This document shows, piece after piece, positions 37,462-40,192 of a stretch of 64,000 nucleotides of DNA (the first letter of the stretch is position 1; every line of letters begins with the position of its first letter). A model generated the notes under the pieces. The model made no database searches. It saw only the letters and a list, made by a program, of their open reading frames with translations, and was not told the DNA's origin. The position numbers and the translations under genes are program-made. This stretch comes from Curtobacterium flaccumfaciens UCD-AKU (lineage in GTDB: Bacteria; Actinomycetota; Actinomycetes; Actinomycetales; Microbacteriaceae), in the NCBI RefSeq assembly GCF_000349565.1, contig NZ_KB714631.1, positions 103,969 to 167,968 of the forward strand, given 5' to 3'.

Positions 37462-38736
37462 ATGGACGACGTGATCGCGGCCGAGCGCACGCGCACGAAC
37501 TGGGCGGGCAACGTCACCTACCGCGCCTCGGCGCTGGCCCGCCCGACGTCGGTGGACGAGCTCCAGCAGCTCGTCGCCTCGACGCCGCGCCTGACGGCGC
37601 TCGGCTCGCGACACTCGTTCAACACCATCGCCGACACCGATGCCGTCCAGGTCTCGCTGTCGGACCTGCCGCCCGTGCTCGACATCGACACGGCCCGGCG
37701 GGTGGTCCGTGTGGCCGCGGGCATGACGCACAGTCAGGTCGCGGCCGGACTGGAGGCCCGTGGCTGGGCCCTCGGGAACCTCGCGTCCCTGCCGCACATC
37801 TCCACGGCCGGTGCCGTCGCCACGGGGACGCACGGCTCCGGTGTGCGGAACCCGTCGCTCGCGCAGGCGGTGGTCGGCCTCGACGTGGTGCGCGCCTCCG
37901 GCGCGCTCGACCACGTCGACGCTGCGTCGCCGGACGGGCTGCTCGACGCCCACCGCGTGGGGATCGGCGCGCTCGGCGTCGTCACCGCGGTGGAGCTCGC
38001 GATCGAGTCGACGTTCCAGGTCGCCACGGCGGTGCACCTCGACCTGCCGTGGGAGGCCGTGGCCGCGCAGTTCGACCCGGTGATGTCCGACGCGTACTCG
38101 GTGTCGATGTTCACGTCGTTCGACGACCGGGGCGCCCGGCAGGTCTGGGTCAAGCACCGCGTCGACGAGGCCGCACCGACGGTCGACCTCGTGGCCCTCG
38201 GAGCCCGTGCAGCCTCGGGTCCGGTGCACCCGGGTGAGAACGACCCTGCCGGGGTCACCGAGCAGGGCGGCGTGCCAGGGCCGTGGGCCGAGCGGCTGCC
38301 GCACTTCCGGTCCTCGTTCACCCCCTCGACCGGGGCCGAGATCCAGGCCGAGTACCTGATCCCCGCGGCCTCGGCCGTGGCGGCACTCGAGGCGCTCCGA
38401 CCGCTGGCGTCGCTGTTCGCGCCGATCCTCATCGCCGCCGAGGTCCGCACCATCGCGGCCGACACCGCCTGGCTCGCGCCGTCATCCGGCCGACAGTCGG
38501 TCGGTCTGCACTTCACGTTCCGCCGGGACGCCGCCGCCGTTGCGGCGGCGGTCACCCGGATCGAGGACGTCCTCGAGCCCTTCGACCCGCGGCCGCACTG
38601 GGGCAAGGTCTCGGCTGCCGGCGCCGAGCGGCTGCACGAGGCGTACCCGCGGCTGTCCGACTTCGCCGCACTCGCCCGTGACCTCGACCCCACGGGGCGG
38701 TTCCGCAACGCGTTCCTCGCGCGCATCCTGTCCTGA
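37462..38736 (+). CDS. FAD-linked oxidase of the alditol oxidase family
   Basis: A 424-residue VAO-fold flavoenzyme close in length and pattern to alditol oxidase (AldO). The FAD-binding part has LTALGSRHSFNTIADTD, where His51 of RHSFN matches the residue that carries covalent FAD in AldO. HISTAGAVATGTHGSG and the C-terminal RPHWGKV segment follow. It should oxidise a polyol or sugar with oxygen. The gap to araA is 17 bases, so it is probably part of the ara operon, suggesting L-arabinitol, xylitol or a related polyol as substrate (inference). Confidence 0.88.
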   Translation: MDDVIAAERTRTNWAGNVTYRASALARPTSVDELQQLVASTPRLTALGSRHSFNTIADTDAVQVSLSDLPPVLDIDTARRVVRVAAGMTHSQVAAGLEARGWALGNLASLPHISTAGAVATGTHGSGVRNPSLAQAVVGLDVVRASGALDHVDAASPDGLLDAHRVGIGALGVVTAVELAIESTFQVATAVHLDLPWEAVAAQFDPVMSDAYSVSMFTSFDDRGARQVWVKHRVDEAAPTVDLVALGARAASGPVHPGENDPAGVTEQGGVPGPWAERLPHFRSSFTPSTGAEIQAEYLIPAASAVAALEALRPLASLFAPILIAAEVRTIAADTAWLAPSSGRQSVGLHFTFRRDAAAVAAAVTRIEDVLEPFDPRPHWGKVSAAGAERLHEAYPRLSDFAALARDLDPTGRFRNAFLARILS

Positions 38737-38747
38737 CGCGATTGACA

Positions 38748-38782
38748 GGTGTCCCGCACCACCGGCTGTGGTGCGGGACACC
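38748..38782. terminator. 15-bp hairpin ending the ara operon
   Basis: Arms GGTGTCCCGCACCAC and its complement with a 5-base loop start 11 bases after the flavoenzyme stop and end 7 bases before the stop of the small minus-strand gene; likely used in both directions. Confidence 0.85.
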
Positions 38783-38789
38783 CGGGTCC

Positions 38790-38900
38790 TCAGTCCTTGC
38801 GGGACAGGTCGATCAGGAGCCTGACCACGGTCACGAGCAAGCTCGCGATCCCCAGCCAGGGCACCCGACGCCTGGACCGATCATCGGCGTCGTTCGACAT
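38790..38900 (-). CDS. Small single-helix membrane protein (36 residues)
   Basis: A 36-residue reading frame: charged head SNDADDRSRRR, hydrophobic stretch WLGIASLLVTVVRLLIDL (about 15-32) and tail SRKD. The ATG at 38900 has a near-ideal ribosome site (AGGAGG, six bases before). The layout, a basic flank then one helix, fits a small inner-membrane peptide. I do not recognise a family. It is separated from the ara operon by a hairpin and lies downstream of a strongly folded region on its own strand. Confidence 0.6.
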   Translation of the reverse strand: MSNDADDRSRRRVPWLGIASLLVTVVRLLIDLSRKD

Positions 38901-38943
38901 CGCTCACCTCCTGGTGTCGTCGCCGGCTGACACGAGGAGCTTC

Positions 38944-39080
38944 GGCCGAGGGATGCGTCGCCGAGCGGGCTCGGCTACCATCGGTTCCGAGCGTTGGAAT
39001 CGGGATGGTTGATGCATCCCTTGGCTTTCCACTCGGAAGGCGAATCGAGGCCCGGAACTGTTGTCGCAGTCCCGGGCCTC
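38944..39080. ncRNA. Candidate structured RNA: three-way junction plus terminal hairpin
   Basis: A 13-bp closing helix (38944-38956 with 39014-39026, two G-U pairs) encloses two hairpins: GCCGAG-CGGG-CTCGGC at 38960-38975, and an 11-bp stem with a 2-base bulge and 7-base loop at 38978-39008. A small stem at 39025-39040 competes with the base of the closing helix, and a 14-bp hairpin follows at 39047-39080. The order on the plus strand (aptamer-like fold, switchable stem, terminator) resembles a leader or small RNA. Strand and function are not known; it is not a tRNA. Confidence 0.5.
39047..39080 (+). terminator. GC-rich hairpin following the folded region
   Basis: GAGGCCCGGAACTG pairs with CAGTCCCGGGCCTC (13 of 14, the other a G-T type pair) around loop TTGTCG, followed by ACGCTTT. 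It is a probable terminator on the plus strand, 168 bases before the next gene. The rest of 39081-39247 shows only GGGGATCCCC and no gene. Confidence 0.6.
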
Positions 39081-39247
39081 ACGCTTTCGCCCAGGTCGCG
39101 CTCCGGCGGTGACACGACCGGAGCCAGCCGACGTGCATGTGTCCGCTGATATGCAGATCGACTCTCACAGGGGATCCCCATCGGATGCCCCGGCGAACCC
39201 CCGCTTCGGTACCGGTCGTCCACATGTGAGGACGCAAAGGTCGGGGC

Positions 39248-40192
39248 ATGGCGAACCTCAACCGCATCATCGGCATGGCCTCGAAGGTCATCGACAAGCA
39301 GCTCCAGAAGCGTGGGCAGGGGGGAACCGCGCCCGGCGCCGGATCGCAGCAGGGCGGAACCGACTGGCGTGGCATCGTGCGGAGCGCCGCGGACAAGCTG
39401 ACCGGTGACGACCGGGGACAGCAGCAGCCGCCGCAGCAGTACGGCCAGCCGCAGCAGTACGGCCAGCCGCAGCAGTACGGCCAGCCGCAGCAGTACGGCC
39501 AGCCGCAGCAGTACGGCCAGCAGCAGCAGCACGCAGGCACGCCGCAGCACGGGGCCGACGCCGACAAGGTCGCCCTGGCGAAGTACGACTACCTGCTCCG
39601 CACCTCGTCGCCGGAGCAGCTCGAACAGGTCCACCACGACGCCTTCGCGCGGCTCACCTCCGGGCAGCGCCAGCAGGTCCGCGACCGCCTGAACTCCGAG
39701 CTCCCGCCCCACGAGCACCTGCGCGACGACTCGGCGGGCGGCATGGCCCGTGCGATGACCCGCGGGGAGATGTCGCGTCCGGGTCTGGTCCGACGGGTCC
39801 TCGGGGGTTCCGGCCGCTCGGGCAACGCCAACGGCAACGGTCGCGGCCGCGCCGGGGCCTTCGCCGGCGGTGCAGCGGTCGGCGCTGGCGCGATGGCGTT
39901 CGGTGGCCTCGCCGCCGCGGTGGCCGGGGGAGCGGTGCTGAGCGCCGCCGCCGGTCCGGTGCTGGCAGGGGCTGCCGACCTCGGCGTGGACTTCGAGGGC
40001 ATCGCCTCGGGCATGGGTGACCTCGGACTCGGTGACCTCAGCGGTGGCGTCGATGGACTCGCCGGTCAGGGTGAGCAGCTCCTCGGTGGCTTCGGTGAGC
40101 AGGCCGCGGGCTTCGGTGAGCAGGCGTCCGGTCTCGGCGAGCAGGCGTCGAACCTCGGCAACGACTTCCTCGGTGGGCTCTTCGACCGCTGA
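39248..40192 (+). CDS. Hypothetical repeat-rich protein with Q/Y/G/P tract
   Basis: A 314-residue protein with four parts: a short N-terminal helix (LNRIIGMASKVIDKQLQKRG), a Gln-rich tract with PQQYGQ repeated five times (about 62-91), a soluble domain around ADKVALAKYDYLLRTSSPEQLEQ, and a hydrophobic Gly/Ala region (about 199-240) ending in GFGEQAAGFGEQASGLGEQA repeats. I recall similar actinobacterial proteins carrying a misleading 'cation-transporting ATPase' label; no P-type ATPase motif is present. The hydrophobic segment could insert in membranes and the tract could self-associate. Function unknown. Confidence 0.8.
   Translation: MANLNRIIGMASKVIDKQLQKRGQGGTAPGAGSQQGGTDWRGIVRSAADKLTGDDRGQQQPPQQYGQPQQYGQPQQYGQPQQYGQPQQYGQQQQHAGTPQHGADADKVALAKYDYLLRTSSPEQLEQVHHDAFARLTSGQRQQVRDRLNSELPPHEHLRDDSAGGMARAMTRGEMSRPGLVRRVLGGSGRSGNANGNGRGRAGAFAGGAAVGAGAMAFGGLAAAVAGGAVLSAAAGPVLAGAADLGVDFEGIASGMGDLGLGDLSGGVDGLAGQGEQLLGGFGEQAAGFGEQASGLGEQASNLGNDFLGGLFDR
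39431..39520 (+). repeat. Five perfect 18-bp tandem repeats (PQQYGQ)
   Basis: CCGCAGCAGTACGGCCAG is repeated five times without a single change, encoding PQQYGQ each time. Perfect identity at third positions suggests recent expansion; copy number should vary between strains. Confidence 0.95.

Follow-up and report, generated by a model that had tools for sequence, protein, structure and literature searches.

Type I toxin–antitoxin systems such as hok/sok and tisB/istR-1 combine a short hydrophobic or amphipathic peptide with a long, structured mRNA leader in which the Shine–Dalgarno (SD) sequence is held in a hairpin. A small antisense RNA opposes the leader rather than the SD sequence itself, and several genomic copies together with a plasmid copy are also found. 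The RNA stops translation of the toxin mRNA or makes it unstable, and the peptide is toxic if made in its absence. The known type I toxin families, Hok, Ldr, Ibs, TisB and Fst, are present in Pfam. According to a 2025 paper, such systems were until then known from Proteobacteria, Firmicutes and Tenericutes alone, to which it adds Cyanobacteria (PMC12390103). The locus analysed here lies in a stretch of 64 000 nucleotides from the actinobacterium Curtobacterium flaccumfaciens UCD-AKU (the window). We put the probability that it is a type I toxin–antitoxin-like module at roughly 0.7; comparison of its copies suggests that the RNA acts for the most part as a short antisense RNA, which would hold back a 36-residue, membrane-type peptide encoded on the opposite strand.

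The initial annotation had described positions 38944–39080 as a three-way junction followed by a small stem and a strong hairpin, and this layout was recovered in the predicted plus-strand fold and found again in relatives. The plus strand of this region has a minimum free energy of −83.3 kcal/mol, compared with a mean of −56.4 (SD 3.7) for dinucleotide shuffles (z = −7.2, none of 200 shuffles equal), and the minus strand is almost as unusual (−73.9 kcal/mol, z = −6.8, 0 of 200). The junction, entered without a strand, spans 38945–39025, with helix P1 formed by 38945–38959 and 39011–39025, P3 by 38960–38975 and P2 by 38977–39009. No Rfam family reached its gathering score anywhere in the window, a permissive scan of 38700–39300 gave eight matches, each under its own gathering score, and both tRNA and tmRNA are absent from the window, in agreement with the earlier statement that the element is not a tRNA and has the layout of no family recognised there. 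The search for compensatory base changes in relatives that had been proposed as a check was also run; the pairing is kept, with compensatory changes in 9 of 27 pairs and 8 of 40 pairs. The folded RNA is real and lies outside the known families. Its helices, however, probably do not belong to a single RNA domain. A conserved promoter-like element (38953–38981) lies inside the junction. Downstream of the RNA, positions 39248–40192 encode a glutamine-rich protein with repeated PQQYGQ units.

The structured region rarely occurs alone. On the minus strand it is followed by an open reading frame for a peptide of 36–37 residues, with the SD sequence in a conserved hairpin, so that the earlier minus-strand reading of the region as the leader of a 36-residue peptide gene holds good; in the region preceding this gene, the majority of the invariant stretches fall within promoter-like boxes and short stems. 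In the window the reading frame, which would encode the proposed toxin, occupies 38790–38900 on the minus strand with an ATG start, as supported by the list of open reading frames, the relatives and an AlphaFold2 model. A hairpin past its stop codon (38748–38782, minus strand), evident in the sequence and by eye in many other copies, is the probable mRNA terminator. When 68 loci were examined for such units, 65 yielded a peptide (L043, L044 and L159 had none), with a length of 36–37 residues in 63 of the 65. The window peptide is 58–75% identical to the 22 other aligned copies, and 11 of its 36 positions are invariant among these 23 sequences; the N-terminal part is charged, and a W–L pair is invariant. 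A single-sequence AlphaFold2 model of the window peptide has a helix at residues 15–35, with a mean pLDDT of 95 over residues 21–30, and in the alignment residues 20, 24, 27, 31 and 34 form, by eye, a polar stripe of a sort that is a feature of small membrane toxins. The peptide is probably amphipathic and membrane-active, and both its length and its modelled amphipathic helix are those of type I toxins, which usually have fewer than 60 residues. In scans of four family members, Pfam returned only DUF3382, under the cut-off and in three of them (the HMMER filters drop most weak matches), with no match at cut-off to a known type I toxin family, while NCBIfam gave one match, also under the cut-off, and PHROGs gave none.

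On the evidence of the codon alignment, for which 55 of the 65 units were used, the coding DNA is constrained beyond the protein sequence. Codon 21 is TTG in all 54 units with leucine at that position, although TTG makes up 1% of the leucine codons in three open reading frames of the window. Codons 19 and 23 are GCG and GTG, respectively, in 55 of 55 units, codon 17 is GGG in 50 of 51, and codon 10 is AGG in 38 of 45. Across codons 17–23 (38832–38852, minus strand) the synonymous sites are almost frozen, and CGAGCTTGCTCG is able to form a hairpin within the coding region.

For the comparisons of the noncoding region, eight divergent units (L131, L139 and L143–L148) were excluded to give alignments of 57 units, and removal of near-duplicates from these left 49. 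A further alignment, A2, holds 48 of the 49, L138 being left out on account of an insertion. Columns with less than 15% letters were dropped, which altered some P1 arms in the loop–loop count and in the comparison of P1 arms within and between copies; the raw sequence was used for raw folding and for the TANNNT columns, and was recovered where possible for the corrected energies and the wobble counts. The wobble count itself, made on the 49 units, is strand-neutral.

The leader of the putative peptide mRNA carries the SD sequence AGGAGGT at 38906–38912 (minus strand, conserved in the alignment), within a hairpin with arms at 38908–38918 and 38929–38939 (element 38906–38939, minus strand, from the alignment). 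Wobbles in this hairpin favour the minus strand over the plus strand by 71 to 24 among the 49 units, whereas composition-corrected energy prefers the plus strand; in the mRNA models for the same units the SD sequence is only partly paired, with a mean unpaired probability of 0.31. A second hairpin, H1 (39094–39119, minus strand), identified from the alignment, would form the 5′ end of the mRNA, and here wobbles (57:35, 49 units) and composition-corrected energy both favour the minus strand. The −10 position of the mRNA lies at 39126–39131 (minus strand) and conforms to TANNNT in 49 of 57 units. It departs from this pattern in the other eight, seven of which have an intact peptide, the window copy included; since the window has TCGGCT here, production of its peptide mRNA may be weak. 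The same position also departs from TANNNT in L112, a close neighbour of the window copy.

The CGCCGG of the H1 loop is complementary to the CCGGCG of the SD-hairpin loop, with 291 of 294 cells pairing across the 49 units, and a loop–loop contact is possible. Covariation cannot judge this pairing, because both stretches are almost invariant, and the contact was set aside as a candidate. A leader reading frame of the mok type was likewise rejected, as no reading frame recurs over the leader among the 65 units when the list is judged by eye.

In a scan of the 57-unit alignment (786 columns, covering 300 bp before and 230 bp after the start codon), TANNNT was conserved at only two columns on either strand: the minus-strand column of the mRNA (49 of 57) and a plus-strand column present in 56 of 57 units, with no more than three elsewhere. 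The plus-strand column sits between P3 and P2, inside the three-way junction. In the window it is a −10-like TACCAT (38976–38981, plus strand), 17 bp from a −35-like ATGCGT (38953–38958, plus strand), and together these would form the antisense promoter. Its middle bases vary (TACACT in 32 units, TACCAT in 12, TATGCT in 7, and others, among the 57), and, as raw counts, an NTG lies upstream at 17 bp in 47 units, 18 bp in 8 and 19 bp in 1 of the 57. Box and NTG are spaced as in a sigma-70-type promoter, and we regard them as a putative promoter, while the conservation of TANNNT could be owed in part to the junction and P2 rather than to a promoter. A longer plus-strand RNA holding P1 was also considered and rejected, there being no second conserved TANNNT column for its promoter, a judgement that covers TANNNT-type promoters only.

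The proposed antisense RNA, the putative antitoxin, would be about 95 nucleotides long (38988–39085, plus strand), its start being placed from the −10 element and its end from the last hairpin, and would contain three stems. These are SL1, which is the core of P2; a box stem (39024–39041, plus strand) with the near-invariant CCACTCGG, supported by the alignment and by compensatory changes; and the strong hairpin H2 (39047–39080, plus strand), a candidate terminator with 11 double changes on the tree and no U tract after it. For the stretch that follows the inner −10 box, a covariance model termed R1 was built from 48 sequences; it matches the window at 38976–39087 with 96.2 bits.

Which strand each stem serves was judged from the way its pairs change. 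Downstream of the box, wobbles favour the plus strand in P2 (39:7), in the box stem (32:12) and in H2 (34:12). On the tree, SL1, the box stem and H2 together show 22 changes to plus-strand G–U pairs compared with five to A–C (p = 0.0015), and 15 changes on both sides of a pair, none of them in SL1, although the pairs counted came from a plus-strand prediction, which leans the count towards plus. Composition-corrected energy agrees with the wobbles for H2, the box stem and H1, and shows no preference at P2 (p = 0.43) or at P3. Judged from the alignment, P1 is a real helix; its arms pair at −19.7 kcal/mol within a copy compared with −14.1 kcal/mol across copies, and compensatory changes are present among the 23 units at the window's site. 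Wobbles favour the plus strand in both P1 (27:0) and P3 (16:7), but neither helix could form in a plus-strand RNA starting at the inner promoter, because such an RNA excludes them. Raw folding energy of the junction is better on the plus strand in 43 units and on the minus strand in 14, with two ties (59 of the 65 units folded). We discarded it as a guide to strand, because the G+T content there is higher on the plus strand (0.569) and the sign reverses against shuffles; after composition correction the preference of the whole junction is for the minus strand.

The fate of the plus-strand box is linked to that of the peptide. Every one of the 55 aligned units whose peptide of 36–37 residues is intact also has an intact box; among 12 units in which the peptide is broken or missing (L142, L158 and ten orphan RNAs) the box is kept in eight and lost in four (Fisher p = 6 × 10−4, relatedness ignored). 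The 55 intact units include seven departures from TANNNT at the mRNA −10 element and none at the antisense element, the asymmetry expected of a toxin and its restraint. Six of the divergent units were checked (L139 and L148 lie outside this check), and all have a plus-strand TANNNT in the leader. The 12-unit group does not include three R1 places without a peptide in group g26, where the box reads GACACT in L233 and TAAACT in L232, and where L234 has TANNNT only three bases further on.

The ten orphans, all within the genus (L222–L231), match the whole R1 model with 86–110 bits, and by eye their deletion junctions differ: L222 and L229 retain the 3′ end of the peptide gene and L226 a truncated start, whereas in L230 and L231 the peptide and the SD hairpin are missing along with the 5′ arms of both P1 and P3, and the RNA is otherwise whole. 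This last pattern suggests that the plus-strand unit that matters begins near the box rather than at the helix closing the junction.

When 59 genomes, among them that of the window, were searched at the DNA level, 32 had matches at E ≤ 0.01. In the three matched genomes outside the genus only 33–56 bases were covered, and several matches within the genus were equally short. The peptide was found at 61 places in 43 of 66 Curtobacterium genomes, including the window's own, with one place in 30 genomes, two in eight and three in five. R1 gave 70 strong places in 47 of the 66, a count from which three weak opposite-strand matches (E = 4 × 10−5 to 1 × 10−4) were excluded. The RNA lies opposite the peptide in 60 of the 61 places, with 74–87 bp between start codon and −10 box. 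The one peptide in the genus without the RNA (L139/L235, G010:C1:834169-834276) also appears, by eye, to lack the SD hairpin upstream. Comparison of flanks distributed the 65 units over six recurring sites (23, 11, 10, 7, 3 and 3 units) and eight single ones, and no genome holds two units at one recurring site.

The Curtobacterium plasmid G54a carries another copy, some 0.8 kb away from mobF, the MobF relaxase gene. Its peptide is 74% identical over 35 residues (tblastn E = 0.3 in a large collection), the RNA opposite it scores 67.4 bits, and no feature is entered at the position of the match in the gene table used, a table known to be incomplete. At the level of the order, the peptide was found in two of 396 genomes at E ≤ 1 × 10−4, namely the window's own and one weak match (3.8 × 10−5), at whose locus (L201) R1 gave no match at E ≤ 1. 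At the family level, among 398 genomes of a larger group, the peptide gave matches in 30 (E ≤ 0.01, mostly weak) and R1 in 20 (E ≤ 0.001), matches of 30–36 bits being left uncounted; the clear members outside the genus are in g26 (G092, G174, G368 and G400) and in G461 of g56. A search of phages gave no match at E ≤ 1.

Taken as a comparison of sequences, these results argue for conservation of the locus, for two promoter-like boxes, for a plus-strand pattern of change in the downstream stems, for the link between box and peptide and for dispersal that includes a plasmid; from them we infer transcription, pairing in vivo, repression and toxicity of the peptide. According to the proposed mechanism, a minus-strand promoter near 39126 would give an mRNA that encodes the 36-residue amphipathic peptide behind a long folded leader and the SD hairpin. 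A plus-strand promoter at 38953–38981, within the region that folds as the junction, would give the RNA of about 95 nucleotides, with its three stems, ending at the strong hairpin. This RNA would be complementary to the part of the mRNA leader that precedes the SD sequence, and its pairing there would block ribosome access or create a duplex open to RNase III. The peptide would then be produced only when the antisense RNA falls.

The alternative that survives best, although we consider it unlikely, is that a cis-antisense RNA controls a small membrane peptide that is not toxic, such as a regulator of a transporter or of a stress response. All of the anatomical evidence would fit this equally, and the genes that flank five recurring sites and two singletons seem, by eye, to be ordinary genes of metabolism and transport. 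Against it, the RNA has been kept and the peptide lost at ten places, as for an addictive or costly gene, and the presence of the peptide in only a part of the genus and the plasmid copy near mobF fit such a gene as well.

Far less probable is a minus-strand riboswitch or RNA thermometer in the leader of the peptide gene, acting without an antisense RNA. The wobbles of the SD hairpin and H1 and the composition-corrected folding of the junction agree with it, but it gives no role to a strong hairpin that lies near the 5′ end of the leader and changes as a plus-strand RNA does, nor to an antisense −10 box kept in every aligned unit with an intact peptide.

The least probable is the plus-strand reading of the initial annotation, a regulatory RNA or riboswitch with the junction as aptamer, the box as switch stem and H2 as terminator: the window copy does fold strongly on the plus strand, which is also favoured by the wobbles of P1 and P3 and, before composition correction, by the junction in 43 of 59 units, but the downstream genes differ between recurring sites, conserved promoter-like boxes lie within the supposed aptamer, the toxin-less L230 and L231 have dispensed with the 5′ arms of P1 and P3 while keeping the remainder, and the strand pattern of base changes points instead to an antisense RNA against the peptide mRNA.

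The type I module that we favour may be extended tentatively, in a form that we think possible but doubtful. The locus would then be the first type I family of the Actinomycetota and would have a two-site target, in which codons 17–23, with TTG at codon 21, would be an RNA-level element, perhaps recognised by the antisense RNA or else by the leader, and the mRNA would be silent unless both contacts were open.

If correct, the type I module would extend type I toxin–antitoxin systems to the Actinomycetota, a phylum not named in the 2025 account as far as its available text goes; the main text of that paper contains no word beginning with 'Actino' (PMC12390103). A literature search, at the level of titles and the beginnings of abstracts and with few subscription papers, found no mention of the Curtobacterium locus or of any type I system from actinobacteria, and within the literature searched the type appears to be unreported in this phylum. 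Such loci may have been missed in Actinomycetota because the peptides are short; the RNA model and the peptide profile would now be available to find further members. With natural copies that are intact, toxin-less or on a plasmid, it would be possible to test directly whether the antitoxin promoter depends on the toxin.

Among described RNAs, the similarities are weak: that to sar RNA (RF00262) concerns the H2 hairpin alone (21.4 bits, gathering score 43), and that to scr5239 (RF02605) includes the H2 hairpin (23 bits, gathering score 64). The msoT1/msoA1 system of Microcystis likewise consists of a small peptide and an antisense RNA encoded in cis, and lies outside the phyla known earlier; it differs in belonging to the Cyanobacteria and in having been tested in E. 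coli (PMC12390103), and the likeness drawn here to the Curtobacterium locus is one of anatomy. From hok/sok and tisB/istR-1 the Curtobacterium locus differs in having no Pfam family at cut-off (four proteins), in being without a conserved mok-type leader reading frame and in its host phylum, the Actinomycetota, whereas it resembles both in the type of peptide, the leader, the SD hairpin, the proposed antisense RNA, the several copies and the occurrence on a plasmid.
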